Made by a program: the position numbers and the translations under genes. A DNA stretch of 64,000 nt. Origin: Roseibium aestuarii. GTDB taxonomy: Bacteria > Pseudomonadota > Alphaproteobacteria > Rhizobiales > Stappiaceae. Below the pieces are notes generated by a model. The model saw nothing but the letters and a program-made list of their open reading frames with translations, searched no databases and was not told the DNA's origin. The stretch spans positions 62,001 through 126,000 of the forward strand of contig NZ_VORA01000001.1 of NCBI RefSeq assembly GCF_008477545.1, given 5' to 3'. Positions within the stretch are counted from its first letter, which is position 1. Every line of letters starts with the position of its first letter. Positions 6,974 to 64,000 of this stretch are shown here, piece after piece.

Positions 6974-8001
6974 AATTCGCACGTCTCGTCATCGCTGGTG
7001 GGGTCCTCTCCCTCGTGGTCCACGGGGCCGGCTCCGCCTATTTCGCGCCCGACCCGGAAGAGACCCTGATTGCGGCCAGCAGTGGCGGTGCGGTCGTCGT
7101 CATCGGCTCGCTGGAGGATCTCGTCGAGGGCTCGGATGCCCCGGTCGAGCCCGTCGAGGCGGTGGTGGAAGAGGTCGAGGTGCAGCGCCCGCGTCCGCAG
7201 ACGCCCGTTGAGACCCCGGTGGAGCGGGTGCAGGTCGCGGCGGTGCAGCCTCAGGTCCAGCCGGTGATCCAGGGCGTGACCGATACTGCGCCCGTCACCG
7301 CCACGTTGGCGGAGGAAGCCCGGCCGCTCGAGGAGGTCCAGCCGGCCAAGCCTGTCGAGGTTCAGCCTGCCCAGGCCGTCGAACCGGTCAACCAGGCGCC
7401 GGTGGTCGAGCAGACACCCGTGGAACAGGCACCGATCGAGCAGACGTCCGTCGAAGTGGCGGCGGTCCAGCCCGTGGAGCAGGCGATCGAGCCTCCGGTC
7501 GAGGAGGAAGAGGTGCAGGTGCCGGAGGAGGTGCTCGCCGCCTTGCCGCTCACAAAGCCCGAGCCTCCCGAGCAGAAGCCTGAAAAGCGCGCGGAGCCGA
7601 AGAAGCCGGCCAAGCCGCGCGGCACCACCGTGTCCTCTCGCAAGGGGGCGGACACCCGCGATCCCAACCAGCGGCAGGCTGCACGTCAGGGCGCGGAAGG
7701 CGGTGCGGCCGAACAGCAGGGCAATGCCGCGCGTTCAAACTACAATGGCCTGGTGCAATCCCGCATTTCCCGCGCCAAGCGCTATGTGCGCGACCGGAAC
7801 CTGCGGGGCAAGGTTCAGGTGGCCTTCGTGGTCAGCCGCAATGGTGCGGTAAGCAACATTCGCATCGCCGGGTCCTCGGGCGATGCCCGCGCTGACAAGG
7901 CCGCGCTCTATATGGTCCAGCGCGCGGGCCGCATGCCGGACCTGCCGCCGGAGTTTCCCGGCACGTCCAAGGCCTTCAGCATTCCGATCCGCTTCGAATA
8001 G
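6970..8001 (+). CDS. tonB: TonB energy-transducing protein
   Basis: 343 residues. The N-terminal helix has the SxxxH pattern (Ser14, His18) known to matter in TonB. A long Pro/Val/Glu-rich spacer (about 45-200, many VEQAP/VEPV-like units) is followed by a basic linker. The C-terminal domain (about 250-343) carries YNGLVQSRISRAKRYVRDR, the conserved YPxxA region in altered form, and ends in IPIRFE. The GTG start overlaps the second exbD. It should contact the TonB boxes of the receptors at 1-449 and possibly 52396-55077. Confidence 0.93.
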   Translation: MKFARLVIAGGVLSLVVHGAGSAYFAPDPEETLIAASSGGAVVVIGSLEDLVEGSDAPVEPVEAVVEEVEVQRPRPQTPVETPVERVQVAAVQPQVQPVIQGVTDTAPVTATLAEEARPLEEVQPAKPVEVQPAQAVEPVNQAPVVEQTPVEQAPIEQTSVEVAAVQPVEQAIEPPVEEEEVQVPEEVLAALPLTKPEPPEQKPEKRAEPKKPAKPRGTTVSSRKGADTRDPNQRQAARQGAEGGAAEQQGNAARSNYNGLVQSRISRAKRYVRDRNLRGKVQVAFVVSRNGAVSNIRIAGSSGDARADKAALYMVQRAGRMPDLPPEFPGTSKAFSIPIRFE

Positions 8002-49084: not shown

Positions 49085-51985
49085 ATGGCCCTCACGCCGT
49101 TCCCATCCCGAGCCATTGTCGTGACCAGCCTGTTTCGGAGCCTCGCCGCTCTCTCTTTCTCCGTTTTTTGCGCCGTCTTCCTGACCCTGTCTTTCGTGCC
49201 TGTCCCGGCGCAGGAGCAGGACAGCGCTGATCTTCTCGAGTGGGATCCGCGTCTCGTCCGTGGCACGCTCGACAATGGGTTGTCCTACGTCATCCATGAC
49301 AGCAAGCGGGAGGGAGATCCGTACAATATCCGCCTGATTGTGAATGCCGGGTCCGTCGACGAGGCCGCGCCCGGAGGGCTGGCGCATATTCTCGAGCATA
49401 TGGTGTTCCAGAGCACGAAGGCGCATCCGGAAACCATCCACCGCTACATCGCTCGCCTCGGCTGGCGGACCGGGGTTCAGATCAATGCGATGACCCGCGA
49501 CACGGAGACCCAGTTCATGGTCCGCACGCGGCCCCACGACGCCCTCGACGTGGATGGGGTCATGGCACTGCTGGCAGACATGCTCCTCGCGCCGGTTCTG
49601 AGCGCGGACGACTGGAGCCGGGAGCGGCAGGTCATTCTGGAGGAACTGCGCCTCAACAGCTCCGTCGCGGAGCGGGTCAATCGTCTCAAGAAGGCCCAGG
49701 TGCGCAATGGCTCGAACTATGCCGCAACGACGCCGATCGGCACCCGTGAGCGGATTGAGGCCGTCGGCATCGATGAAATCCAGGCGTTTCACGAGCGGTT
49801 CTATCGCCCATCCAACATGACCGTCATCGTCAGCGGGCGGGTGGACCCGGCGACGGTGGTCGCAGCTCTGGATCGGCATTTCGGGTCCTATCCCTCTTTG
49901 AGTGCTCCTGAGCGTCCCTACCTGGTGCTCCCGCTCCGACCCGGAATTCACATCGGACGAGTTCAGGATCCGGCGGGAATGTCTTCCCGGGTAACCTATG
50001 CGTTTCGGGTTTCCGCACCAAAGCGCGACACCATCGACGGGCTCCGTTTCTATCTGGAGAAATATTTCCTCGGCCGTCTGATCCGTGACCGCATTTCCGC
50101 CCAGTCGTCGGCATTTTCCGGGGAAGTGGAGGGGCTGACCTTCGTGCTTCAGGAAACCACGAATGAGCGGTTGACCCTGGCCTTTGCGGCGAAGACCCAT
50201 GACCACGACATGGGACTGGCCGTGTTGCTGCGCGAGGTGGAACGGCTGCGGCAGAATGGCGTGAGCGAGACGGAGTTTGCTGCTTTGAGGGAGAAGGTCG
50301 CTGACATCGCCCGGCGCAACGTCAAGGCGGCCGGATCGCGGACGTATCAGACCTGGGAAGACAAGATCGCGAGCAGCCTCGTGCAGGGCAAGGTCCTGAC
50401 CCATCCGGAAACGGAGCGGGACCAGATTCTGGCAGCGCTCGACGAGATTACCTTCGAAGACCTGAACCGGCGGCTTGTCGAGTGGTTGGGCGCCGCAGAC
50501 CGGCTCGTGTATTATCAAGTCCCGGGCAGCGTTCAACGGGAGCTGCCCACTGAGGAACACGTGATGTCCCTCGAGGCCGGTTTTGCGCGCCAGCGTTTCT
50601 CCCCTGTGACCGAAGGCGTGGGCGTCTCCGTCCCCGAGGCCAAGGACGAGGACGAGGAGCTGGAGGTCGAAGAGCCGACCGCGCGGCTGGAGCTTCCGGA
50701 AATGTCTGAGGCGACCGGGGATGCAGGGCGTTTGTCCGCTCCCGAGGATCTTGGCAAAGGTGTCATCGGCTGGCGTCTGGAGAACGGTGACCGGCTGGTC
50801 TGGCTGGATCGGCCGACACCCGGCGACAAGCTGACAATCAAGGCCCTGTCGGAGCCCGGATTCGAGAATCGTCAGTATCCCAGTTGGTTGTCCCAGGCTG
50901 CCATCCAGCTTTGGGACCAGAGCGGCTTCGATTTCTGGACCGAGACGGAAAATGCCAGCTATCGCGAGAACAAGGACCCGAAATGGAGTGTGGCCCTCAA
51001 ACCTGGTGAGCTGGACATCGCGGCGATCGCCAGTCCGGAAGAGCTGTCCTCGCTCCTGCGGGCCTACGGGCACAAGATCCTTCATGTCTCCCTTTCCGCA
51101 GATGCCCTTTCGGCGTTCAGGTCTCAGATGGGGGAAGATCTTGCACGCGATTTCACTCCCTCTCAGAAGTTGGCCATGCAGGTGAATGCCTGGCGCTTCG
51201 GCAACACGGCCACGCGGCCCGACGCCCGGGACCTCGAACATCTGACCTTGCAGGACCTGTCCGAAGCCGCGGCGAATATTCTGATGCAGCCGGTAACCTG
51301 GCTGGTCGTGGGCCCGCGCCCCCAACCGGCTGCGGGTTTCGGCCTCGAGAGTCTCTTCGCGAGGCATGTCGGCAGGATTCCGCGTCAGGCCACGCTCGGT
51401 CCTGTGCCGTCCCGCCAGGTGGATGGTCATCGCAAGGAAACGGTGCACGTCTATGAGCAGGCCATGGCGAGCGTCAGGTTGCTTGGCAGTACGGACATGG
51501 AATGGTCACCGGAAAAGGCCTTCCTTCTGTCTGCGTTGACACCACTGACCCAGACCGCGCTGAAGGATGAACTCCGGCTGCGGCTTGGAGGCGTCTATTC
51601 GGTGGCCTTTGAAATGACCTTGTCCCCCTGGACCGATCGGCTTGAACTCGACGTATCGTTCACATGCGCGCCGGACCGGGCAGAGGAACTGGCTCTGGCG
51701 GCCCGTACAGTGCTGGATGACCTTCCCAATCGCCTGACCGGAATGCAGCTTGATCGCTTGCGCGAGGATCTCCGATTTGCTGAAAGCGGCCGCCTGGAAG
51801 ACCCGAATACCTGGGTCCGGCGCCTTGGCTTGAGCCTCCGCAGCTATGGCGATGCGCGCTATCTGGAGACCATGGCCCAGCTGGCGGATCGGCTGACGCA
51901 GGACCGGATCGAGGCCCTGGCACAGTCGCTCATCCCGCTGGCCCGAAGCCTGACGGTCATCGCACTGCCCAGGAAAGCCCCCTGA
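49085..51985 (+). CDS. Exported M16 (pitrilysin/PqqL-like) zinc metalloprotease
   Basis: 966 residues. A hydrophobic export signal (about 15-43, VPVPAQEQ) predicts a periplasmic enzyme; the ribosome site at the ATG is poor, so a slightly internal start is possible. The inverted zinc motif HILEH is at 101-105, and the third ligand Glu lies in RQVILEELRLN (about 186). Two M16 halves follow, separated by an acidic linker (EAKDEDEELEVEEP, about 518-531), and the Arg-Tyr element LRLRLGGVYSVAF sits near the C-terminus. It probably degrades an imported polypeptide. A TonB-dependent receptor gene follows on the same strand. Confidence 0.92.
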   Translation: MALTPFPSRAIVVTSLFRSLAALSFSVFCAVFLTLSFVPVPAQEQDSADLLEWDPRLVRGTLDNGLSYVIHDSKREGDPYNIRLIVNAGSVDEAAPGGLAHILEHMVFQSTKAHPETIHRYIARLGWRTGVQINAMTRDTETQFMVRTRPHDALDVDGVMALLADMLLAPVLSADDWSRERQVILEELRLNSSVAERVNRLKKAQVRNGSNYAATTPIGTRERIEAVGIDEIQAFHERFYRPSNMTVIVSGRVDPATVVAALDRHFGSYPSLSAPERPYLVLPLRPGIHIGRVQDPAGMSSRVTYAFRVSAPKRDTIDGLRFYLEKYFLGRLIRDRISAQSSAFSGEVEGLTFVLQETTNERLTLAFAAKTHDHDMGLAVLLREVERLRQNGVSETEFAALREKVADIARRNVKAAGSRTYQTWEDKIASSLVQGKVLTHPETERDQILAALDEITFEDLNRRLVEWLGAADRLVYYQVPGSVQRELPTEEHVMSLEAGFARQRFSPVTEGVGVSVPEAKDEDEELEVEEPTARLELPEMSEATGDAGRLSAPEDLGKGVIGWRLENGDRLVWLDRPTPGDKLTIKALSEPGFENRQYPSWLSQAAIQLWDQSGFDFWTETENASYRENKDPKWSVALKPGELDIAAIASPEELSSLLRAYGHKILHVSLSADALSAFRSQMGEDLARDFTPSQKLAMQVNAWRFGNTATRPDARDLEHLTLQDLSEAAANILMQPVTWLVVGPRPQPAAGFGLESLFARHVGRIPRQATLGPVPSRQVDGHRKETVHVYEQAMASVRLLGSTDMEWSPEKAFLLSALTPLTQTALKDELRLRLGGVYSVAFEMTLSPWTDRLELDVSFTCAPDRAEELALAARTVLDDLPNRLTGMQLDRLREDLRFAESGRLEDPNTWVRRLGLSLRSYGDARYLETMAQLADRLTQDRIEALAQSLIPLARSLTVIALPRKAP

Positions 51986-52395: not shown

Positions 52396-55077
52396 ATGAA
52401 CATTCGTGGTTCACTTTTGCGGCAGGTATCGCGGTTGACCCTGCTTTCCATTGGCCTTTCGGGCGGTGGATTGGGTCAGAGTCTTGCTCAGGAGACGACA
52501 ACGCTCGAGGTGGTGATTGTCGGGACGGATACGCCGGAGGGGGCTGCGAGCCTGAGCGAGGTTGGTTCCAGCGATACGGGCCGAACCACCATGAATGCCC
52601 AGTCGGTGTCGACCCGGACAGACACCACGGGGGATGCGACGAGCATCCTGAAGAGCTTGCCGACCGTCCAGTATCTGAACAATTCCGCGGAAGCCGATGA
52701 CGAGGGCGAGAACGCGGATGACGTCGTTGATTTCCGTCCGCTGGAAGTTTCAATCTCCGGAGCCCAGACCGACGAGAACATGTTCATGCTCAACGGCGTG
52801 TCGATCAATAGCACGGCCGGCGCCTACGACCCTGTTTCCAGCGACTATGGCAACGGCATCTCGCGGTGGGACAGCACCCAGTCCGCGAACAACATTCGCG
52901 GGTTCTACGGCATGAGCTCCCAGAGCCAGTACACGCCGAGCACCTTTGTCGAGGAGGTCGAGCTCTTCGATTCCAACGTGTCCGCGAAATACGGGAATTT
53001 CCAGGGTGGAGTGGTCAATTACAAGCTGAGGAAGCCGGATCCGGACGCCACCGAGTGGCGTGGCGCGACCACCTTCAGCTATCAGGACAACCGCTTCGCG
53101 AACTATCACATCGCCACGGATGACGGTGAAAACCCGAAGGGCCGCACGGAGCCGGAGTGGCAGAAGTTCGACTTCTCGGTCACGGCCGACGGCCCTGTGA
53201 CCGACAGCATCGCCGCGCTTGTCGCATTCTCCCGTCGCTATGGCGGCGCGGACAAGCAGATGGACGTTCAGTATGTCGTTGATGAGGATTCGGAATATGT
53301 GCCGTTCTCATCGATTTCCGATTTTTATCGGGTGTCTGTCAGCAAGGAGCTGGACGAAGGCGAGTTGAACTGGTCCACCAACCTGACCCATGCCGTGCAG
53401 GAATGGGTGTCCAATGCCATGTATGACGTCGGGATCGATGTCGGCAATGTCGCCGTGCAGAACGTCCTCGATTTCGACCGTGACCTGGATATCCTTGGCG
53501 GAGTGCACCTGAACAGCAAGGGTCTCTTTAATTACCAGAGTGTGACCAACGAGTCGGGCGTCGATGAATACAAGGTCTGGACCATTTACAGGGAGCGGAC
53601 GCGTAGCGGAACGACTTATGTCACTGATAGCGACCTCTTCTCCACCTGGTGCCAGAACCCGGATGGATCCACCTCGACGACCTACTGCTATGAGGGCGGG
53701 GCCGGCAGCAAGTCGCTGGACGATGTTACCCTTGGTGGCACCTCCGAACTTGATGGTGACCTGCTCTGGGGCACCTTCCTGCTCGGCGGCGGCTTCGAAT
53801 ATACCCGCGCCAGCCGGACATTCTCCGGGCTCGACACCTATACCGCCACAAAGACTACGGCCGACGCGGAATATGAGACCTACGGCGGATTCCCCGGCAG
53901 CTTTGTCTGTGACACGGGCGATGACACCTGCACGAGGGACGTCTATTTCTCCAGCAGGCTGGTCTATGACGACTATGACACCACGGTAAACGCCAGCAAG
54001 TTCGACCTTTATGCCCAGACCGAGCAGGAATGGCGCTGGCTGAAGATCCGGGCAGGCTTGCGCGGCGACTACAACACCTATCTGCAGAACTACAACGTGG
54101 CGCCGCGGTTCGTCTCCACGGTGACGCCGTTCGACAACCTGTCCTTCACCTTTGGCGCAAACCGTTACTACTCCGGCGATTACATCACATACGCGATCCA
54201 TGACAACACGGGTGGCCGCACGAGCTACTCGCGCAGCTATGACGCTACGACCGGCGAAGTGGGGGGCTGGGTCGCGGGAACGCTGACCGCACCTTACCGC
54301 TACGGCGACGGGGACTTGCGAACCCCCTACAACGACGAGTTGACCGGTGCGGTCTCCTATGACGATCCGTTCAGCGGCGGCAACTGGCGCCTGAAGTATC
54401 TCAACCGACAGGGGCGCGATCAGTTCTCCCGTTCGAGCGAAAGCACCACGCGGAACAATATCCTGAGCAACGAAGGTTCTTCGAGCTACCAGTCGGTAAC
54501 CTTAGAATACACTCGCGATTGGCGGATCCAGACAGAATATCTCGAGAAGCTCGGGGTGCATCTGGCTGGAGTCTGGGCCCAGCGCGATATCTCGAACAAC
54601 ACATACTTCGATGAATCTATCGACGATGAATATATCTATTATGGCGGTTCGACCTACACCAAGGCAGGCTTCCAGCAGGTCACCGGCAATCTCGATATTC
54701 CGCTGCGCTTCAATCTTGGCGTCACTTCCACGTGGCTGGAGGGCAGGCTGCGTCTCGGCCTGAGTGGAGATGTGGTCTTCGGTTACACCGGCGTGCGTGA
54801 CAGCGGCGATGATGCGGACGAGCTCGGGATCGTGGCGACCTATGATGGGGCCGACGTCTCGACACTGACAGACGTCTACGAGGACTATGATTTCGACACC
54901 AATCTCAGCCTGAACGCCACCGTGGGCTACACGGTTGCCGAGATCGAGGGGAACCCCTTCGACATCGAGCTGAAGGTTTCCAATCTTCTGGATGACGTCT
55001 CCAACATGGTGTCGAGCGACGACAATCCCTGGGTCCGCGGCCGAACCATCGCCCTGACCGGAAAGTTCACCTGGTAA
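52396..55077 (+). CDS. TonB-dependent outer-membrane receptor (large, protease-associated)
   Basis: 893 residues with signal peptide ending SLAQ, then a TonB-box-like TTLEVVIVGT. The plug domain (about 40-230) includes ISGAQTDENMFMLNGVSIN and SAKYGNFQGGVVNYKLRKP. The C-terminal 22-strand barrel ends GRTIALTGKFTW with the terminal aromatic residue. Acidic, Tyr-rich extracellular loops and paired Cys (CQNPDGSTSTTYC; CDTGDDTC) are visible. With the adjacent M16 protease it resembles FusA/FusC or PqqU/PqqL, systems that import an iron protein or peptide. The ligand is unknown. Confidence 0.9.
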   Translation: MNIRGSLLRQVSRLTLLSIGLSGGGLGQSLAQETTTLEVVIVGTDTPEGAASLSEVGSSDTGRTTMNAQSVSTRTDTTGDATSILKSLPTVQYLNNSAEADDEGENADDVVDFRPLEVSISGAQTDENMFMLNGVSINSTAGAYDPVSSDYGNGISRWDSTQSANNIRGFYGMSSQSQYTPSTFVEEVELFDSNVSAKYGNFQGGVVNYKLRKPDPDATEWRGATTFSYQDNRFANYHIATDDGENPKGRTEPEWQKFDFSVTADGPVTDSIAALVAFSRRYGGADKQMDVQYVVDEDSEYVPFSSISDFYRVSVSKELDEGELNWSTNLTHAVQEWVSNAMYDVGIDVGNVAVQNVLDFDRDLDILGGVHLNSKGLFNYQSVTNESGVDEYKVWTIYRERTRSGTTYVTDSDLFSTWCQNPDGSTSTTYCYEGGAGSKSLDDVTLGGTSELDGDLLWGTFLLGGGFEYTRASRTFSGLDTYTATKTTADAEYETYGGFPGSFVCDTGDDTCTRDVYFSSRLVYDDYDTTVNASKFDLYAQTEQEWRWLKIRAGLRGDYNTYLQNYNVAPRFVSTVTPFDNLSFTFGANRYYSGDYITYAIHDNTGGRTSYSRSYDATTGEVGGWVAGTLTAPYRYGDGDLRTPYNDELTGAVSYDDPFSGGNWRLKYLNRQGRDQFSRSSESTTRNNILSNEGSSSYQSVTLEYTRDWRIQTEYLEKLGVHLAGVWAQRDISNNTYFDESIDDEYIYYGGSTYTKAGFQQVTGNLDIPLRFNLGVTSTWLEGRLRLGLSGDVVFGYTGVRDSGDDADELGIVATYDGADVSTLTDVYEDYDFDTNLSLNATVGYTVAEIEGNPFDIELKVSNLLDDVSNMVSSDDNPWVRGRTIALTGKFTW

Positions 55078-55650: not shown

Positions 55651-57929
55651 ATGTTCTTCGCTCATTCCGGCTCCCCAGACGATCAAGGCGACTGGCAGAG
55701 GCTGCAGGATCACCTGCAGGAAACGGCCCGCAGGGCCGCGGATTTCGGGCGACCTCTGGGGCTCGAGAAACCGGCATATCTGGCTGGCCTCCATCATGAT
55801 CTGGGCAAATACACGCGCCAGTTCCAACGGCGCCTCGCGGGTGACGACATTCGGGTAGATCACTCGTCCGCCGGGGCCGTGGAGATGATGGCCCGAGCTG
55901 AAAAGTTGCCGGCGGCCGGTCGGATCGTTCTGGAGCTTGTGGCTTACTGCATTGCGGGCCACCATGCCGGATTGCCGGACCGCAAGAATGAGACCGCCGC
56001 AAGCCTTGATCGGCGCCTGGAAGCCGACGTGCCCGCGCTTGACCCGATCTGGCAACAGGCGCTCGCCGAAGCCTCGCAACGCTGGTCTGAGGGGCTGGCC
56101 CCGGACCTCCTGCGGACCATCCCCCCGGCGGATGCGGACTTCTCCCTGTCGGTCATGGCCCGCATGATCTTTCCTGTCTGGTGGACGCGGATTTCAAGGA
56201 TACGGAGGCCTTCTATGACCGGCTGGAAGGCAGGTCGCGGGACCGGGACTGGCCGGCTCTGCAGGAGTGCCTGCCCCGGTTTCTGACGCTCTTTGACGCC
56301 CACATGGCGGAGAAGGCCGATGCGGGCGGCGAGTTGAACCGTCTCCGCGGCGATATCTTGCATCATGTGAGAGCGCAGGCCGCGAATTCGCCTGGCCTTT
56401 TCACGCTGACTGTGCCGACGGGCGGGGGCAAGACCCTGGCATCCCTGGGCTTTGCCCTGGATCACGCCAGCCACCATGGTCACCGGCGGATCATCTATGC
56501 GATCCCTTTCACCTCGATCATCGACCAGACGGCAGCCATTTTCCGGAAACTCCTCGGCGATGACGTCGTTCTCGAGCACCATTCTGCGATCGATGAGGAA
56601 AAGTGGCAGCAGGGGCGCAAGGAGGACAGGCAGCAGGCGGACAAGCTGAAGCTGGCGATGGAGGACTGGGCCGCGCCGGTCGTGGTCACCACCAATGTCC
56701 AGTTTTTCGAGAGCCTGTTTGCGGCCAGAACCTCCAGAGTGCGAAAGCTGCACAACATCGCCGGCAGCGTCATCATTCTGGACGAGGCGCAGACCATTCC
56801 ACGTCACCTGCTCAGGCCGGCGATGCGGATGCTTGACGAGCTGGCCCGCGCCTATGGCTGCACCATCATCCTGTGCACGGCCACCCAGCCGGCCCTTGGC
56901 AAGGACAGAGTGCAGGGCGGGCTGTCCCTGGAAGGGCGGGAACTGGCTCCCGATCCCCACGAACTGGCGCGAAAGCTGCGGCGCGCAACGGTTCGCATGG
57001 TCGGGACCATGGCCAACGGCGATCTGATCACCCAGCTGGAGGGGGAGGAGCAGGCTCTCGTCATCGTCAACAGCCGCAAGCATGCGCTGGACCTGTTTCG
57101 GGAGGCGGAGCAGGCGAGGCTGGACGGCCTGGTCCATCTCACGACCCGGCAATGCGCGGCGCATCGTCGTCAGATCCTCGATGAGGTGCGGAGCAGGCTG
57201 GAGGGGAAGCAGACCTGCCGTGTGGTCGCCACCAGCCTGATCGAGGCTGGTGTCGATGTGGACTTCCCGAAGGTCTGGCGGGCGGAGGCGGGGCTGGATC
57301 AGATCATCCAGGCGGCGGGCCGCTGCAACCGGGAAGGCCGGCGGGCCACCGAGGAGAGCATTGTCACCGTGTTCTCGTCTCCTGATTATCCGCCTCCCCG
57401 GGAAATTCGGAGCCTGATGGGCGACATGGAGCGCATGCGGACGACCCATGCGCAGGATCTGCAGTCTCTTGCCGCCATCGAAGCCTATTTCGCCGAGGTC
57501 TACTGGCGCATGGGAGGCGATCTCGACCGGGAGGGCATTCTCGATCTCTTCACCCACAGCAGGAAGGGCACGGACTACGCCTTCCGCACGGTGGCCGAGA
57601 AGTTCCGCATGATCGAGAGCGGCATGGTGCCCGTGATTGTCCCATGGGGTGATGGGGCGGGGGACGACGAGGCGCGGGAGGCGATCCGCCTTCTGGGCGT
57701 TCCGGAAAAATCCTCCGCCGCGCTTGCAAGGGCCTTGCAGACCTTTGTCGTCCAGGTGCCGCCGGAAGCGCGGGCGCGTCTCGTGGCGAATGGCAAGGCG
57801 GAGTTTGCGGCGCCGGCGCAGCGTGGCGACCAGTTCTGCGTGTTGAAGGACGAGGGGCTCTATCTGCCGGACGTGGGTCTGCTCTGGGAAGACGCGGACT
57901 ATCTGGCTGCGGAACAATTGATGATCTAG
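55651..57929 (+). pseudogene. cas3: Type I-C cas3 (HD nuclease-helicase), interrupted by a -1 frameshift
   Basis: The HD nuclease part (frame from 55651) has HSG near the start, HHDLGKY, DHSSAGA and GHHAGLPD, the metal-binding set. This frame should continue through the family motif RMIFSCLVDADF, but it reads RMIFPVWW and then unrelated residues to a stop at 56284-56286. The expected SCLVDADFKDTE is in the next frame starting at base 56172, so one base is missing around 56169-56174. The helicase part follows in that frame to 57929. Intact Cas3 would degrade Cascade-bound DNA. This copy is inactive, expressed as two pieces, or reflects a sequencing error. Confidence 0.85.
56181..57929 (+). CDS. 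cas3: Cas3 helicase portion (DEAD/DEAH SF2) as separate open frame
   Basis: 582 residues if started at the GTG at 56181, which codes the Val of the conserved VDADF motif and has no ribosome site, so independent initiation is unlikely. Helicase motifs are intact: Walker A PTGGGKT, Walker B LDEAQTIP, TATQPAL, VNSRKHAL, ATSLIEAGVDVDF and QAAGRCNREG. The C-terminal Cas3 domain is complete, and 25 bases separate it from cas5c. It would unwind and feed DNA to the HD nuclease only if joined to the upstream part. Confidence 0.8.
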   Translation: MDADFKDTEAFYDRLEGRSRDRDWPALQECLPRFLTLFDAHMAEKADAGGELNRLRGDILHHVRAQAANSPGLFTLTVPTGGGKTLASLGFALDHASHHGHRRIIYAIPFTSIIDQTAAIFRKLLGDDVVLEHHSAIDEEKWQQGRKEDRQQADKLKLAMEDWAAPVVVTTNVQFFESLFAARTSRVRKLHNIAGSVIILDEAQTIPRHLLRPAMRMLDELARAYGCTIILCTATQPALGKDRVQGGLSLEGRELAPDPHELARKLRRATVRMVGTMANGDLITQLEGEEQALVIVNSRKHALDLFREAEQARLDGLVHLTTRQCAAHRRQILDEVRSRLEGKQTCRVVATSLIEAGVDVDFPKVWRAEAGLDQIIQAAGRCNREGRRATEESIVTVFSSPDYPPPREIRSLMGDMERMRTTHAQDLQSLAAIEAYFAEVYWRMGGDLDREGILDLFTHSRKGTDYAFRTVAEKFRMIESGMVPVIVPWGDGAGDDEAREAIRLLGVPEKSSAALARALQTFVVQVPPEARARLVANGKAEFAAPAQRGDQFCVLKDEGLYLPDVGLLWEDADYLAAEQLMI

Positions 57930-57954: not shown

Positions 57955-58623
57955 TTGTCATATGGAATCCGACTGAAGGTCTGGGGAGACCACGGTTGCT
58001 TCACCCGTCCGGAAATGAAGGTGGAGAGGGTCTCCTATGATGTCATGACGCCCTCGGCGGCGCGGGGCATCCTGGAGGCGATCCATTGGAAGCCGGCGAT
58101 CCGCTGGGTGATCGACGCCATTCATGTGCTGGAGCCGATCCGGTTTCAGTCGATCCGCCGCAACGAGGTCGGGTCCAAGGCGCCTGCGGGCAAGATCAGG
58201 ACCGCCATGAAGCGCGGCGATCTGGGTGGGCTGCAGGTGCTGGTGGACGAGGACCGGCAGCAGCGCGCCGCGACCGTTCTGGTCAGGCCGGCCTATGTGA
58301 TCGAGGCGCATTTCGAGCTGACGGAAAAGGCCGGTGCCGACGACAACGAGGGCAAGCATCTCGACATCTTCAACCGGCGGGCCGAGCGGGGCCAGTGCTT
58401 TCACCAGCCCTGTCTGGGCACGCGGGAGTTTGCGGCACATTTCGAGCTGATCCCTGCCGAGGCCCCCTTGCCGGAGACGGTCTCAGAGACCCGTGACCTT
58501 GGCTTCATGCTCTGGGACATCGATCATCAGGCACCGGGGCGACCGTCCATGTTCTTTCGGGCTCAGCTCGACAAGGGCGTGGTCCGGATTCCACAGCCCG
58601 GCTCGGCGGAGGTGCTGCGATGA
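57955..58623 (+). CDS. cas5c: Cas5c (Cas5d), type I-C pre-crRNA endoribonuclease and Cascade subunit
   Basis: 222 residues from a TTG at 57955, supported by GGGGAGG six bases upstream and the standard N-terminus SYGIRLKVWGDHGCFTRPEMKVERVSYDVMTPSAARGILEAI. In type I-C there is no Cas6; Cas5c cleaves the repeat at the 3' base of its hairpin and stays on the 5' tag. The repeat here has the matching hairpin and would leave a tag ending GGATCGAAAC. The stop overlaps cas8c by four bases. Confidence 0.95.
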   Translation: MSYGIRLKVWGDHGCFTRPEMKVERVSYDVMTPSAARGILEAIHWKPAIRWVIDAIHVLEPIRFQSIRRNEVGSKAPAGKIRTAMKRGDLGGLQVLVDEDRQQRAATVLVRPAYVIEAHFELTEKAGADDNEGKHLDIFNRRAERGQCFHQPCLGTREFAAHFELIPAEAPLPETVSETRDLGFMLWDIDHQAPGRPSMFFRAQLDKGVVRIPQPGSAEVLR

Positions 58624-60380
58624 GCGTCCTGTCTTCTCTTGCGCGGGCCTATGACCGGCTCCCCGACGCCCCGCCGTCCGGCTTCTCTTCGGAGAAGGTC
58701 GGCTTCTGCATTTCCCTGAACGAAGACGGCTCCGTTGCCCACGTGACCGACCTGCGCGACACGAGCGGGAAGAAGCCTGTGCCGAGACAGATGCTGGTGC
58801 CCCATCCGGTCAAGCGCACGGCCGGGATCTCGCCCAACACCTTCTGGGACAAGACATCCTATGTGCTTGGCGTGACGGCGGGGGAGGGCAAGCGCACGCA
58901 AGCCGAGCATGCGGCCTTCGTCGAGCATCATCAGGCTTTGCTTTCGGGAACTGAGGACACTGGCCTCAAGGCGTTGCTTCAGTTTTTGGGGGACTGGACC
59001 CCCGATAGGTTTTCCCAGCTCGAATGGCCGGAGGAGATGAAGGATCAGAACGTGATCTTCGCCCTGGAAGACGAGCGGTTGATCCATGTTTATCTTCATG
59101 ATCGGGCAGCGGCCCAGGCACTCTGGGCAGCCGCTGGGGCCGCTGGGGACAGGTCCGGGCAGATCTGCCTTGTGTCGGGTCGACACGGTCCTGTGGCCCG
59201 GCTTCATCCCTCCATCAAGGGGGTCTGGGGCGCTCAGTCGTCCGGTGCGGCCCTGGTCTCCTTCAATCTCGACGCCTTCACTTCCTATGGGCACGAGCAG
59301 GGCGACAACGCTCCGGTCTCGGAGGATGCCGCCTTCAGATACACCACGGCACTGAACCGCTTCCTGGAAAAGGGCAGCGGCCACCGTCTCCAGATCGGGG
59401 ATGCGTCCACCGTCTTCTGGGCCGATGCATCTGGTCTTGGCGGGGCTGCGCATCAGGTGGAGGAAATGGCCGAGCAGCTGTTTGCGGGGTATTTCGACAC
59501 GGATCCTGCAGCGGAAGAAGAGAATGCCGTCAAGGAAATCGGCATTCTTCTGGAGCGTATCCGCAAGGGCGACCATCTTCAGGATCTCGGCGTCCAGCTG
59601 GATGGGGAAATCCGGTTCTTCGTGCTCGGCCTTGCGCCCAATGCCGCTCGGCTGTCGGTCAGGTTCTACTTTGAGAACAGCTTTGGCGAGCTGACACGCC
59701 ATTATCAGTGCTTCATCTCCGACATGCGCATAGATCCGCCGCCGCGCGACGGCTATCCGCCGCTCTGGCGCTATCTGCGCGAGACGGCGGTGCTGGGGAA
59801 GGGAGAGAACGTTCCGCCCAATCTGGCAGGGGAATGGATGCGCTCGATCCTGAGCGGAGGGCGGTATCCGCTTTCGCTTCTCTCCGCCGTTCTGACGCGC
59901 CTCCGCGCCGACGGCGAGATCAACGCGCTCCGCGCCGGCATTCTGAAAGCCAATCTCGTCCGAAATTTCAACTGGGAGGCTCCCGTGGCACTGGACACAC
60001 AAAACCCTGATCCTGCTTACGTCCTCGGGCGTCTGTTTGCAGTACTTGAGAAAATTCAGCTTCTGGCGCTGGGAAAGGTGAATGCGACGATACGGGATCG
60101 GTACTTTGGAGCTGCTTCCGCAACACCGAGAACAGTTTTTCCGCTGCTTTTAAAGCTCAATCTTCATCATAGAAGTAAGGCAGAGAAGAATGAAAATACG
60201 CGTAAGCTTGAGAGATTTTTCTCAGGTCAGATTGCTGAAATTATGAATTTACTTCCGACTGAGTTTCCGAAGTCGTTGTCTCTTTCGGATCAGGGGAAGT
60301 TTTCTATCGGATACTACCATCAGTTTAATTATCGAAAGTCAGAGGATACTAGCTCTGATGCCGGGGAGGCCAGCCAATGA
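58620..60380 (+). CDS. cas8c: Cas8c (Csd1), type I-C Cascade large subunit
   Basis: 586 residues, normal Csd1 length, beginning MSVLSSLARAYDRLPDAPPSGF. Family phrases include VSFNLDAFTSYGHEQGDNAPVSEDAAFRYTTALN and FFVLGLAPNAARLSVRFYFE. It recognises the PAM and opens the target DNA. An internal, in-frame start at 59985 (GGGAGG then GTG) should give the small subunit Cas11c. The last 350 bases are markedly AT-rich compared with the rest of the operon. The stop overlaps cas7 by four bases. Confidence 0.95.
   Translation: MSVLSSLARAYDRLPDAPPSGFSSEKVGFCISLNEDGSVAHVTDLRDTSGKKPVPRQMLVPHPVKRTAGISPNTFWDKTSYVLGVTAGEGKRTQAEHAAFVEHHQALLSGTEDTGLKALLQFLGDWTPDRFSQLEWPEEMKDQNVIFALEDERLIHVYLHDRAAAQALWAAAGAAGDRSGQICLVSGRHGPVARLHPSIKGVWGAQSSGAALVSFNLDAFTSYGHEQGDNAPVSEDAAFRYTTALNRFLEKGSGHRLQIGDASTVFWADASGLGGAAHQVEEMAEQLFAGYFDTDPAAEEENAVKEIGILLERIRKGDHLQDLGVQLDGEIRFFVLGLAPNAARLSVRFYFENSFGELTRHYQCFISDMRIDPPPRDGYPPLWRYLRETAVLGKGENVPPNLAGEWMRSILSGGRYPLSLLSAVLTRLRADGEINALRAGILKANLVRNFNWEAPVALDTQNPDPAYVLGRLFAVLEKIQLLALGKVNATIRDRYFGAASATPRTVFPLLLKLNLHHRSKAEKNENTRKLERFFSGQIAEIMNLLPTEFPKSLSLSDQGKFSIGYYHQFNYRKSEDTSSDAGEASQ
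59985..60380 (+). CDS. cas11c: Cas11c small subunit from internal start within cas8c
   Basis: 131 residues in the same frame as cas8c, starting at codon 456. GGGAGG at 59974-59979 lies five bases before the GTG, a strong Shine-Dalgarno placed inside a coding region. The product starts just before ALDTQNPDPAYVLGRLFAVLEKIQ, the C-terminal alpha-helical part. Type I-C systems are known to make a separate Cas11c by internal translation of the cas8c 3' end, at this size. It would line the Cascade belly with Cas7. No direct proof from sequence alone. Confidence 0.7.
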   Translation: MALDTQNPDPAYVLGRLFAVLEKIQLLALGKVNATIRDRYFGAASATPRTVFPLLLKLNLHHRSKAEKNENTRKLERFFSGQIAEIMNLLPTEFPKSLSLSDQGKFSIGYYHQFNYRKSEDTSSDAGEASQ

Positions 60381-61330
60381 CCGCAATTTCCAACCGTTAT
60401 GATTTTGCCCTCGTTTTCGAGGTCACGAATGGAAATCCGAACGGGGACCCGGATGCAGGCAACATGCCGAGGCTCGATCCGGAGACCAACCGGGGGCTGG
60501 TCACTGATGTCAGCCTGAAGCGCAAGATCCGGAACTATGTGGAGCTGGCCAGGGAACGACAGGATGGCTTTCACATCTATGTCGAGGAAGGCTCGATCCT
60601 GAACGAGAAGCATCGGCAGGCGTACAAGGCGCTTTATCCGGACGATTCCAAGCTGGACAAGGCAGCCAAGCTGAACCCGAAGGACGACACTGAAGCGGCG
60701 AAGCTGAAGGACTTCATGTGCGCCAATTTCTTTGATGTGCGCACATTCGGTGCGGTCATGTCGACGGGAATCAACTGCGGTCAGGTCAAGGGCCCGGTGC
60801 AGATGGCCTTTGCCACATCCGTCGAGCCGATCCTGCCTCTGGAAATCTCGATTACCCGCATGGCCGCGACCAACGAAGTGGAACGGAAGCAGAAGGCGGA
60901 AGGTGACGACAGCAATGATCGGACCGACAACCGGACCATGGGACGCAAGCACATCGTGCCCTACGGCCTGTATGTCGCTCATGGCTTCATCTCTGCGAAG
61001 TTTGCCGAGCGAACAGGATTTTCCGAAGGGGATCTCGAATTGTTCTGGCAGGCTCTCGAAATGATGTTCGAGCATGATCATGCGGCCGCCCGTGGCGAAA
61101 TGGCGACCCGCAAGCTGGTCGTGTTCAAGCACGCCAATGCCCTGGGCAATGCACCTGCGCACAAGCTGTTTGATCTGGTTCGCATCGGGCGCAACGTTGA
61201 CGGTGAGTTCCGCGCCGTTGATGACAAGCGGATCGGCAACGAGCCTCCGGCCCGGAAATTCTCCGATTACATCATCGAAATCGACCGGGACAACTGCCCG
61301 GAAGGTGTCGAGATCATCGAGAAGTTCTAG
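60377..61330 (+). CDS. cas7: Cas7c (Csd2), type I-C crRNA backbone subunit
   Basis: 317 residues starting MTAISNRYDFALVFEVTNGNPNGDPDAGNMPRLDPETNRGLVTDVSLKRKIRNYVE, the classic Csd2 N-terminus with the GNPNGDP motif. It also has the DVRTFGAVMSTG and IVPYGLYVAHGFISAKFA regions. Several copies polymerise along the crRNA spacer. The start overlaps cas8c and the stop lies two bases before cas4. Confidence 0.96.
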   Translation: MTAISNRYDFALVFEVTNGNPNGDPDAGNMPRLDPETNRGLVTDVSLKRKIRNYVELARERQDGFHIYVEEGSILNEKHRQAYKALYPDDSKLDKAAKLNPKDDTEAAKLKDFMCANFFDVRTFGAVMSTGINCGQVKGPVQMAFATSVEPILPLEISITRMAATNEVERKQKAEGDDSNDRTDNRTMGRKHIVPYGLYVAHGFISAKFAERTGFSEGDLELFWQALEMMFEHDHAAARGEMATRKLVVFKHANALGNAPAHKLFDLVRIGRNVDGEFRAVDDKRIGNEPPARKFSDYIIEIDRDNCPEGVEIIEKF

Positions 61331-61332
61331 GC

Positions 61333-62001
61333 GTGCCGGACTGGGCCCCAGGTTCTGAGACTGCGGGAGGGGAGGCCATCCCCCTCTCGGCCCTGCAGCA
61401 TGCGGTCTATTGCCTGCGACAGGCGGCCCTGATCCATCTGGAGCGGTTGTGGGCGGACAACCGTTTCACGGCCGAGGGCGACGTTCTCCATGCCGTGGCC
61501 GACAAGGGCGGCAGCCGCAAGGCGCGCGGTGTGCGCCGCGTCATGGCTCTGCCGCTCGCCTGCAAGCGTCTCAATCTCGCTGGCGTTGCGGATGTGGTCG
61601 AGTTTCCCGGCTGGCCGGATGACGAAATCCCCTGTCCGGTGGAGTACAAGCGCGGAAAGCCGAAGCTGCACCGGGCCGACGAGGTGCAACTATGCGCTCA
61701 AGGGTTTTGCCTTGAGGAAATGACCGGTCTGACCGTGCCGCACGGCGTGCTGTTCTACGCCGAGACACGCCGCAGGGTGAGCGTGCCCTGCGACAGGGAC
61801 CTTCGGCAACTGACCGAGGCGACGGTGGCCTCCCTTGCCGCTGTTTTCCGATCCCGGCAAACCCCGGGCCCGACTCTCCAGACATCCCGGTGCCGGGCCT
61901 GCTCGCTGAAGGAACTTTGCCGCCCCGAAACGGTCTCCCGCCCGGTGAAGGCCTGGCGTCGGCGGATGCTGAACGGAGCCCTTGAGGCGGAAGCGCCATG
62001 A
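61333..62001 (+). CDS. cas4: Cas4 nuclease (spacer acquisition)
   Basis: 222 residues from a GTG at 61333. Cys27 (HAVYCLRQ) and the C-terminal cluster CRACSLKELC give the four cysteines of the iron-sulfur site. The RecB-type nuclease core includes VEYKRGKPK. Cas4 trims prespacers and helps select the PAM end with Cas1-Cas2. The stop overlaps cas1 by four bases. Confidence 0.94.
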   Translation: MPDWAPGSETAGGEAIPLSALQHAVYCLRQAALIHLERLWADNRFTAEGDVLHAVADKGGSRKARGVRRVMALPLACKRLNLAGVADVVEFPGWPDDEIPCPVEYKRGKPKLHRADEVQLCAQGFCLEEMTGLTVPHGVLFYAETRRRVSVPCDRDLRQLTEATVASLAAVFRSRQTPGPTLQTSRCRACSLKELCRPETVSRPVKAWRRRMLNGALEAEAP

Positions 62002-63032
62002 AGAAGCTGCTGAACACGGTCTATATCACCACCGAAGGTTCCGCCTTGCGCAAGGATGGCGAAAACCTGGTGGCGGATGTGGAAGGTGTCGAGAAGGCCC
62101 GTGTGCCCCTGCACATGCTGGCCTCCGTTGTTGCCTTTGGCGCGGTCTATGCGTCTCCGGCCTTGATGGGGGCCTGCGCCGCCGCCGGAATCACTCTGGT
62201 TTTTCTGGAGCGGAACGGCCGGTTTCTGGCCCGGGTCGAAGGTCCGGTGTCGGGCAACGTGCTCCTGCGGCGGGCGCAGTATCAGGCGTCGGATGCACCG
62301 GAGGAGATTGTCCGGTCCATCGTGACGGCCAAGATCGTCAACCAGCGCGCCGTGTTGCTGCGTGCCTTGCGGGATTACCGGACCGAGTATTCCGAGCAGG
62401 TTCTGAGCGAAATCACCCACGCGGCCGACCGGATGGCCATGATCGCCCGCCGGGTGGAGGCGACGGACGAAACCCTGGACCGAATGCGCGGGTCGGAAGG
62501 GGAGGCAGCCAATCTCTATTTCTCCGTCTTCGATCATCTGATCCGCTCGCCGGACCCGGAAATCTGCTGGCGTGGGCGCAGCCGTCGTCCGCCGCTTGAT
62601 CCGGTCAATGCGGTTCTGTCCTTTCTCTACACGTTTCTGACCCATGATTGCCGGGCTGCCTGCGAAAGCGTGGGTCTGGATCCGGCGGTGGGGTTTCTTC
62701 ACCGGGACCGGCCCGGCCGCCCCAGCCTCGCGCTCGATCTCATGGAGGAGCTGCGTCCGGTTCTGGCCGATCGGCTGGCCCTGTCCCTGTTCAACCGCCG
62801 TCAGCTCAGGGCGTCCGACTTCGAGACGAAGGACGGGGGCGCGGTTTTTCTGAGCGACGACGCTCGCAAGACGGTTCTGACCGCCTGGCAGGAGCGCAAG
62901 CGCGAGGAGCGACAGCATTTGTTCCTCGGCGAGAAGGCACCCCTGGGGCTTGTGCCCTATCTGCAGGCGCAGATGCTGGCGGGGCACCTGCGCGGCGACA
63001 TGGACGCCTATCCGCCGTGGTTCTGGAAATAG
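61998..63032 (+). CDS. cas1: Cas1 integrase (type I-C)
   Basis: 344 residues starting [30 protein letters not shown]. The metal site is formed by the Glu in [18 protein letters not shown], the His in [24 protein letters not shown] and the following acidic residue. It inserts new spacers at the leader end together with Cas2. The end is complete and is followed by AGGAG and cas2 eight bases later. Confidence 0.96.
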
Positions 63033-63040
63033 GAGCGCAG

Positions 63041-63331
63041 ATGCTGGTGCTTGTGACATATGATGTCCGGACGTCGGAAGGGGACGGTGCCCGTCGCCTT
63101 CGCGCGGTGGCCAAGGCCTGCCGCGACTATGGTCAGAGGGTGCAGTATTCCGTCTTCGAGATCGAGGTCGATCCGGCACAATGGACGAAACTGAAAGCCC
63201 GCCTCGAACGGGTGATCGATCCCGCCCATGACAGTCTGCGCTACTATCACCTCGGCGCAAACTGGCAGCGTCGGGTGGAGCACGTTGGCGCCAAGCCCGC
63301 GACCGATCTGGGTGGAACATTGATCGTGTGA
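63041..63331 (+). CDS. cas2: Cas2
   Basis: 96 residues from the ATG at 63041, preceded by AGGAG. The ferredoxin-like fold starts [11 protein letters not shown] with the conserved Asp, and ends [18 protein letters not shown], the type I-C Cas2 tail. It bridges two Cas1 dimers during spacer integration. It is the last cas gene, 206 bases before the first repeat. Confidence 0.96.
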
Positions 63332-63537: not shown

Positions 63538-64000
63538 GTCGCCCCCTCCCGGGGGCGTGGATCGAAACATTACGGTGACAGATGCGTGGTCTCAGGCTGC
63601 TGTCGCCCCCTCCCGGGGGCGTGGATCGAAACGGTTGTGGATCGGTCCAACTCGGCGCACACCACGTCGCCCCCTCCCGGGGGCGTGGATCGAAACATGA
63701 GCATTTCAACCGTTTCCTGCATTTCAAAAGGTCGCCCCCTCCCGGGGGCGTGGATCGAAACGCAGGCTGCCCGAGGGCTCGGCCCTGCCGGGGAAGTCGC
63801 CCCCTCCCGGGGGCGTGGATCGAAACGGGCGCCGGGGGGCGCAGCTGGATCTGTCGGGCGGGTCGCCCCCTCCCGGGGGTGTGGATCGAAACCAGTCCTG
63901 CGAGCCGGGCGTGACGTACACCTACCAGTCGCCCCCTCCCGGGGGCGTGGATCGAAACTCGGCGGTCTGCTCGGCGTCGGCTTTGCCTCTGGGTCGCCCC
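63538..64000 (+). CRISPR. Type I-C CRISPR array, 7 full repeats plus the start of an eighth
   Basis: Repeats of 31 bases (GTCGCCCCCTCCCGGG... to ...GTGGATCGAAAC) start at 63538, 63602, 63666, 63731, 63796, 63862, 63928 and 63993, the last cut by the window edge. Spacers are 33, 33, 34, 34, 35, 35 and 34 bases, all different. Each repeat has a CGCCCCC / GGGGGCG hairpin and an 11-base 3' part TGGATCGAAAC that becomes the crRNA 5' tag. The repeat at 63862 has one change (GGGGGTG for GGGGGCG). The cas genes and leader lie upstream, so new spacers enter at the left end. Confidence 0.98.

Follow-up and report, generated by a model that had tools for sequence, protein, structure and literature searches.

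A single-base frame break in cas3 of an otherwise complete type I-C CRISPR-Cas locus of Roseibium aestuarii

The window, by which we mean the whole stretch of 64,000 nucleotides of Roseibium aestuarii DNA analyzed here, ends in a CRISPR-Cas locus on the forward strand (Table 1). The locus resembles type I-C (cas3-cas5c-cas8c-cas7-cas4-cas1-cas2) in gene set, in gene order, in the subtype-specific Cas5c, Cas8c, Cas7 and Cas1c families and in an internal Cas11c start, and it differs from typical type I-C in that its cas3 lies in two reading frames. The NCBIfam models for cas5c, cas8c, cas7, cas4 and cas1c were matched above their cut-offs, and cas2 was identified by Pfam and PADLOC. All six genes are open, in agreement with an earlier reading of the letters (the sequence-only reading), which had described the operon as otherwise complete. 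An array of 10 repeats of approximately 31 bp with 9 spacers lies beside the cas genes. A simpler pattern scan counted 9 of these 10 repeats, and 19 repeats in G011, a genome of the same genus with an intact Cas3.

Table 1. Features of the type I-C locus (positions in the window).
Feature	Position	Strand	Description
cas3 HD frame	55651..56286	+	211 aa; HD nuclease domain to RMIF, then out-of-frame residues, TGA stop 56284-56286
cas3 helicase frame	56091..57929	+	612 codons stop to stop; in-frame starts GTG 56181, ATG 56304
frame switch site	56169..56174	+	between RMIF and SCLVDADF
cas5c	57955..58623	+	TTG start; TIGR01876 4.8e-53
cas8c	58620..60380	+	TIGR01863 5.8e-171
predicted internal Cas11c	59985..60380	+	GTG at cas8c codon 456, strong ribosome site, -10.2 kcal/mol
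cas7	60377..61330	+	TIGR02589 1e-111
cas4	61333..62001	+	TIGR00372 1.5e-33
cas1c	61998..63032	+	TIGR03640 2.6e-152
cas2	63041..63331	+	PF09827 9.6e-27; PADLOC Cas2c 5.5e-43
CRISPR array start	63538..64000	+	continues beyond window end; L006 9039-9656

Translation of Cas11c from an internal start of cas8c has been described (PMC7684278), and the internal GTG is common to R. aestuarii, G011 and a second relative, G003. The 3' part of cas8c that also encodes Cas11c is much more divergent in R. aestuarii than the remainder of the gene. In its last two 60-column alignment blocks, identity to G011 and G003 is 47-57%, and that between G011 and G003 is 82-91%. A swapped Cas11c segment is possible. Upstream of cas3, an 893-aa ORF (52396-55077) has the look of an outer-membrane receptor by eye, with no Pfam match at 0.001, and the ORF that precedes it (49085-51985) encodes an M16 peptidase. 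An integrase remnant that we had suspected by eye upstream of cas3 was dropped, as it had no Pfam or PADLOC match and an E-value of 0.26 against the integrase that lies next to cas3 in G011.

The cas3 gene is split over two forward-strand frames. The HD ORF matched the cas3_HD model TIGR01596 (1.3e-21) over profile positions 1-138 of 178. The helicase frame matched TIGR01587 (7.8e-35) and PADLOC Cas3c (1.2e-178) over 56178-57926, and its similarity to Cas3 starts only at the frame switch. When the intact Cas3 of G011 was aligned with the two frames by tblastn, residues 4-186 were found in the first at 63% identity and residues 186-767 in the second at 78%, and the two pieces abut without a gap at query residue 186. 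The same alignment puts the switch between RMIF and SCLVDADF, where the sequence-only reading had placed it. The break is a single base and sits within a short T run. Judged from the alignments, the two-frame cas3 is not a chance arrangement. The frame is broken relative to intact orthologues, which is one of the two marks of a cas3 pseudogene, the other being the absence of Cas3 activity from the cell.

The HD domain of Cas3 carries five motifs (H-HD-H-H-D), of which motifs I, II and V bind metal site 1, according to the part of PMC3727216 that we used. By its position, the Asp of LVDAD would be motif V, a metal ligand. This residue is invariant in an alignment of 10 relatives, and the stretch around it aligns with the same part of two Cas3 chains of solved structure, 8zns_A and 8g9u_P. 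The frameshift falls just before LVDAD, so that the HD chain retains the earlier motifs (assigned by eye) and lacks motif V. Since the motif V Asp is encoded in the helicase frame, the encoded HD chain is not complete. The statement in the sequence-only reading that all HD and helicase motifs are intact therefore holds for the two frames combined and fails for the HD chain alone.

We searched 87 genomes of the family and found a helicase match in 16, R. aestuarii included; at the genus level, 4 of 45 genomes had one, again counting R. aestuarii. One uninterrupted HD-helicase Cas3, which the R. aestuarii locus lacks, is encoded by 14 of the 15 relatives with a homologue, in frames of 736-776 aa. 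In the fifteenth, G010, cas3 is present as two pieces at contig edges, with a frame of 456 aa, and the genome has no cas8c match. At the switch site itself, all 15 relatives read RM(I/L/V)FS(C/A)LVDAD(F/Y) in a single frame (one of the two G010 copies was looked at). This comparison, which the sequence-only reading had proposed, bears out its one-base frameshift in cas3: the frame is joined at the site in every relative, and the split is particular to the R. aestuarii genome. The two pieces in G010, which is of the same genus, are near-identical 5' copies of cas3 (1,564 bp, 99.9%), one (L004) at the end of contig C10 and the other (L005) at the start of contig C19; they may be either what is left of a type I-C locus or a place where the assembly broke at a repeat. 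The alignment of the G003 Cas3, which is near a contig end, begins at residue 29 of the G011 protein and residue 14 of the R. aestuarii HD part. Just upstream of the intact cas3 in G011 (L008, 16740-18218) there is an integrase-like gene, with Phage_integrase and Arm-DNA-bind_3 matches that are both under the curated Pfam cut-offs, hinting at a mobile origin of the G011 locus.

A wider scan gave a similar picture. Among the best 80 of at least 581 confirmed stretches, a ranking that favours intact genes, 78 were uninterrupted for 680 aa or more, one (L083) meets a contig end and one (L075) is frame-broken. L075, from a Hyphomicrobiales MAG, has a type I-C-like cas3 with a frame change at approximately 7979-7985, near residue 507 of the G011 protein. 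The nearest named loci among the wider-scan matches listed belong to Falsochrobactrum, Hyphomonas, Magnetospirillum, Shinella and Paracoccus, in keeping with an alphaproteobacterial source. The same DNA was not found on plasmids in a near-match search.

We consider a real and recent loss-of-function frameshift in a type I-C cas3, a case of ordinary decay, to be the probable explanation, and the likeliest of those weighed here. Translation from the ATG at 55651 would exit the Cas3 frame after RMIF and halt at the TGA at 56284-56286, and the product would be an HD fragment that lacks both the helicase and the metal ligand of motif V. Little or no helicase would be expected, because neither internal start of the second frame has a ribosome site. 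The best anti-SD energies are +0.6 kcal/mol at the GTG at 56181, which agrees with the earlier claim that this start lacks a ribosome site, and +0.7 kcal/mol at the ATG at 56304; the corresponding values are -11.0 for cas5c, -10.8 for cas8c, -10.4 for cas7, -3.0 for cas4 and -0.6 kcal/mol for the native cas3 ATG. As the native start itself reaches only -0.6 kcal/mol, the measure is not decisive. The ATG at 56304 is in the helicase frame only 17 bases beyond the HD stop, and weak re-initiation there is therefore possible, which would give a helicase without an HD domain. A second Cas3 acting in trans was rejected: the HD model and the helicase protein each matched the R. aestuarii genome once.

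The Cascade genes (for Cas5c, Cas8c with the internal Cas11c, and Cas7) and the adaptation genes (for Cas4, Cas1 and Cas2) are open. With these genes open, crRNA processing, target binding and perhaps spacer uptake could still take place, and destruction of target DNA could not. We infer the loss of Cas3 activity, the expression of the other genes and any retained binding or adaptation from the state of the reading frames; target binding and spacer uptake by this locus are plausible. A type I-C Cascade of Neisseria lactamica without Cas3, used as a CRISPRi tool, binds and represses its targets (PMC10865793, seen in part), which makes a bind-only state plausible here. The two share a Cas3-less type I-C Cascade, engineered there and natural here, with binding in R. 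aestuarii being a prediction only.

Breakage of cas3 in type I loci is already known, and as cas gene decay the present case is ordinary. In Salmonella, 9 of 16 genomes carry pseudogenes of cas3 and cse1 next to cas genes that appear intact (PMC2886076). The degraded type I loci of Escherichia and Salmonella resemble the one described here in having a broken cas3 beside apparently intact cas genes; they differ in being of the Ecoli subtype (I-E) and in that cse1 is often broken too, whereas in R. aestuarii cas3 alone is affected, by one base (PMC2886076). A truncated cas3' has been recorded in one Moritella strain (PMC5399434, in part). The accessible portion of PMC6546361 holds nothing on cas3 frameshifts, and within the literature on natural cas3 breaks, of which we saw parts, we found no type I-C cas3 frameshift, although one may still exist in print. 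If real, the locus would be a natural Cas3-deficient type I-C locus at an early stage of decay, with its Cascade and adaptation genes open, and it would be suited to asking whether spacer acquisition or target repression continues in a type I locus that has lost its nuclease.

The main rival is a sequencing or assembly error, in which case cas3 would be intact in the living strain and its type I-C system normal. The break is known from one assembled genome, it affects one base within a short run of T, and cas3 shows no other decay. To weigh this, we compared ORFs of G011 with 356,400 bases of the R. aestuarii genome, counting as a match an identity of 60% or more over 80 aa. Of 1466 ORFs (spurious ones counted), 286 matched and covered 209,766 bases, with 6 two-frame cases. 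Five of these are upstream read-through, neighbouring genes or probable non-genes, the alignments being judged by eye; cas3 is the sole case with two abutting, similar halves within a known gene. The reverse comparison, in which 299 of 1232 R. aestuarii ORFs matched G011, gave 5 two-frame cases, two of them tandem paralogues and none judged a clear frameshift. This census would overlook frameshifts close to the ends of genes and those in genes with no match in G011. A one-base join artefact was flagged as a two-frame case and served as an unplanned positive control. As cas3 is the only clear in-gene frameshift in approximately 210 kb, the assembly does not appear indel-prone here. The genome is also rated 99.99% complete with 0.15% contamination, which again speaks against an error.

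The age of the break was approached with three-taxon estimates of dN on the branches to R. aestuarii, G011 and G003, which are 0.139, 0.126 and 0.139 for the HD part and 0.066, 0.069 and 0.080 for the helicase. The dN/dS ratio was left aside because dS is high (0.5 to 2.4). The cas3 dN on the R. aestuarii branch is not raised, so that the break, if real, is recent. The unchanged dN and the clean helicase frame would fit equally well with a gene unbroken in the living strain or with a Cas3 that is still made. After the census, a sequencing error is less likely, and we now regard it as unlikely.

More unusually, the locus may persist as a Cascade that binds targets without a nuclease while adaptation still works, a natural CRISPRi or memory-only state, or Cas3 may come from two frames, through an unrecognised form of recoding or as an HD fragment acting with a helicase chain that bears motif V. 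We hold this broader proposal, taken with all its variants, to be improbable.

The explanation that fares worst is that Cas3 is still made from its two frames, by recoding or as a cooperating HD fragment and helicase chain. The helicase frame shows no decay and runs cleanly to its stop, there is the in-frame ATG shortly after the HD stop, and separate Cas3'' (HD) and Cas3' (helicase) proteins, likewise in two reading frames, are known from certain type I systems (PMC3727216). Unlike in those systems, the cut here interrupts the HD domain ahead of motif V, a ribosome site is missing at both the GTG and the ATG of the second frame, and the gene of the relatives is fused; a split Cas3'' would carry the whole HD domain as a separate chain, and here the motif V Asp is in the other frame.

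Programmed -1 slippage takes place on a slippery heptamer of the form X_XXY_YYZ. No such heptamer is present at the switch site, as read from the sequence, and no stimulatory RNA structure was seen downstream, where shuffled sequences form a more stable fold than the 89 bases that start at 56172 (z +0.91, with 167 of 200 shuffles at least as stable; pseudoknots are outside the model). A two-frame cas3 occurs in 0 of the 15 relatives. We therefore dropped programmed slippage, which the sequence-only reading had offered, for want of a heptamer, a structure and conservation; its other suggestion, a true two-chain Cas3, falls with the missing motif V and the single frame of the relatives. A working split Cas3 is the least likely reading, and a very doubtful one.

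Self-targeting was considered as the cause of cas3 loss and gave a weak negative: 4 of the 7 matches of the array to the R. aestuarii genome were listed and 6 of 26 first-look candidates scored, and among the matches listed 2 lie outside the array, of 19 and 21 bases. None of 50,697 phage records matched the array, and 3 of the 9 spacers, used as exact patterns of 21-23 bases, had no match in viral contigs. An 18-base pattern across the frame switch matched two viral contigs; neither stretch encodes the helicase, and the matches were taken as chance. Beyond the window end (L006 9559-9720 and 10187-10276), the length of the G run varies in the last repeats, a truncated repeat comes next, and a tRNA-Ser (GGA) lies on the reverse strand approximately 0.5 kb beyond.
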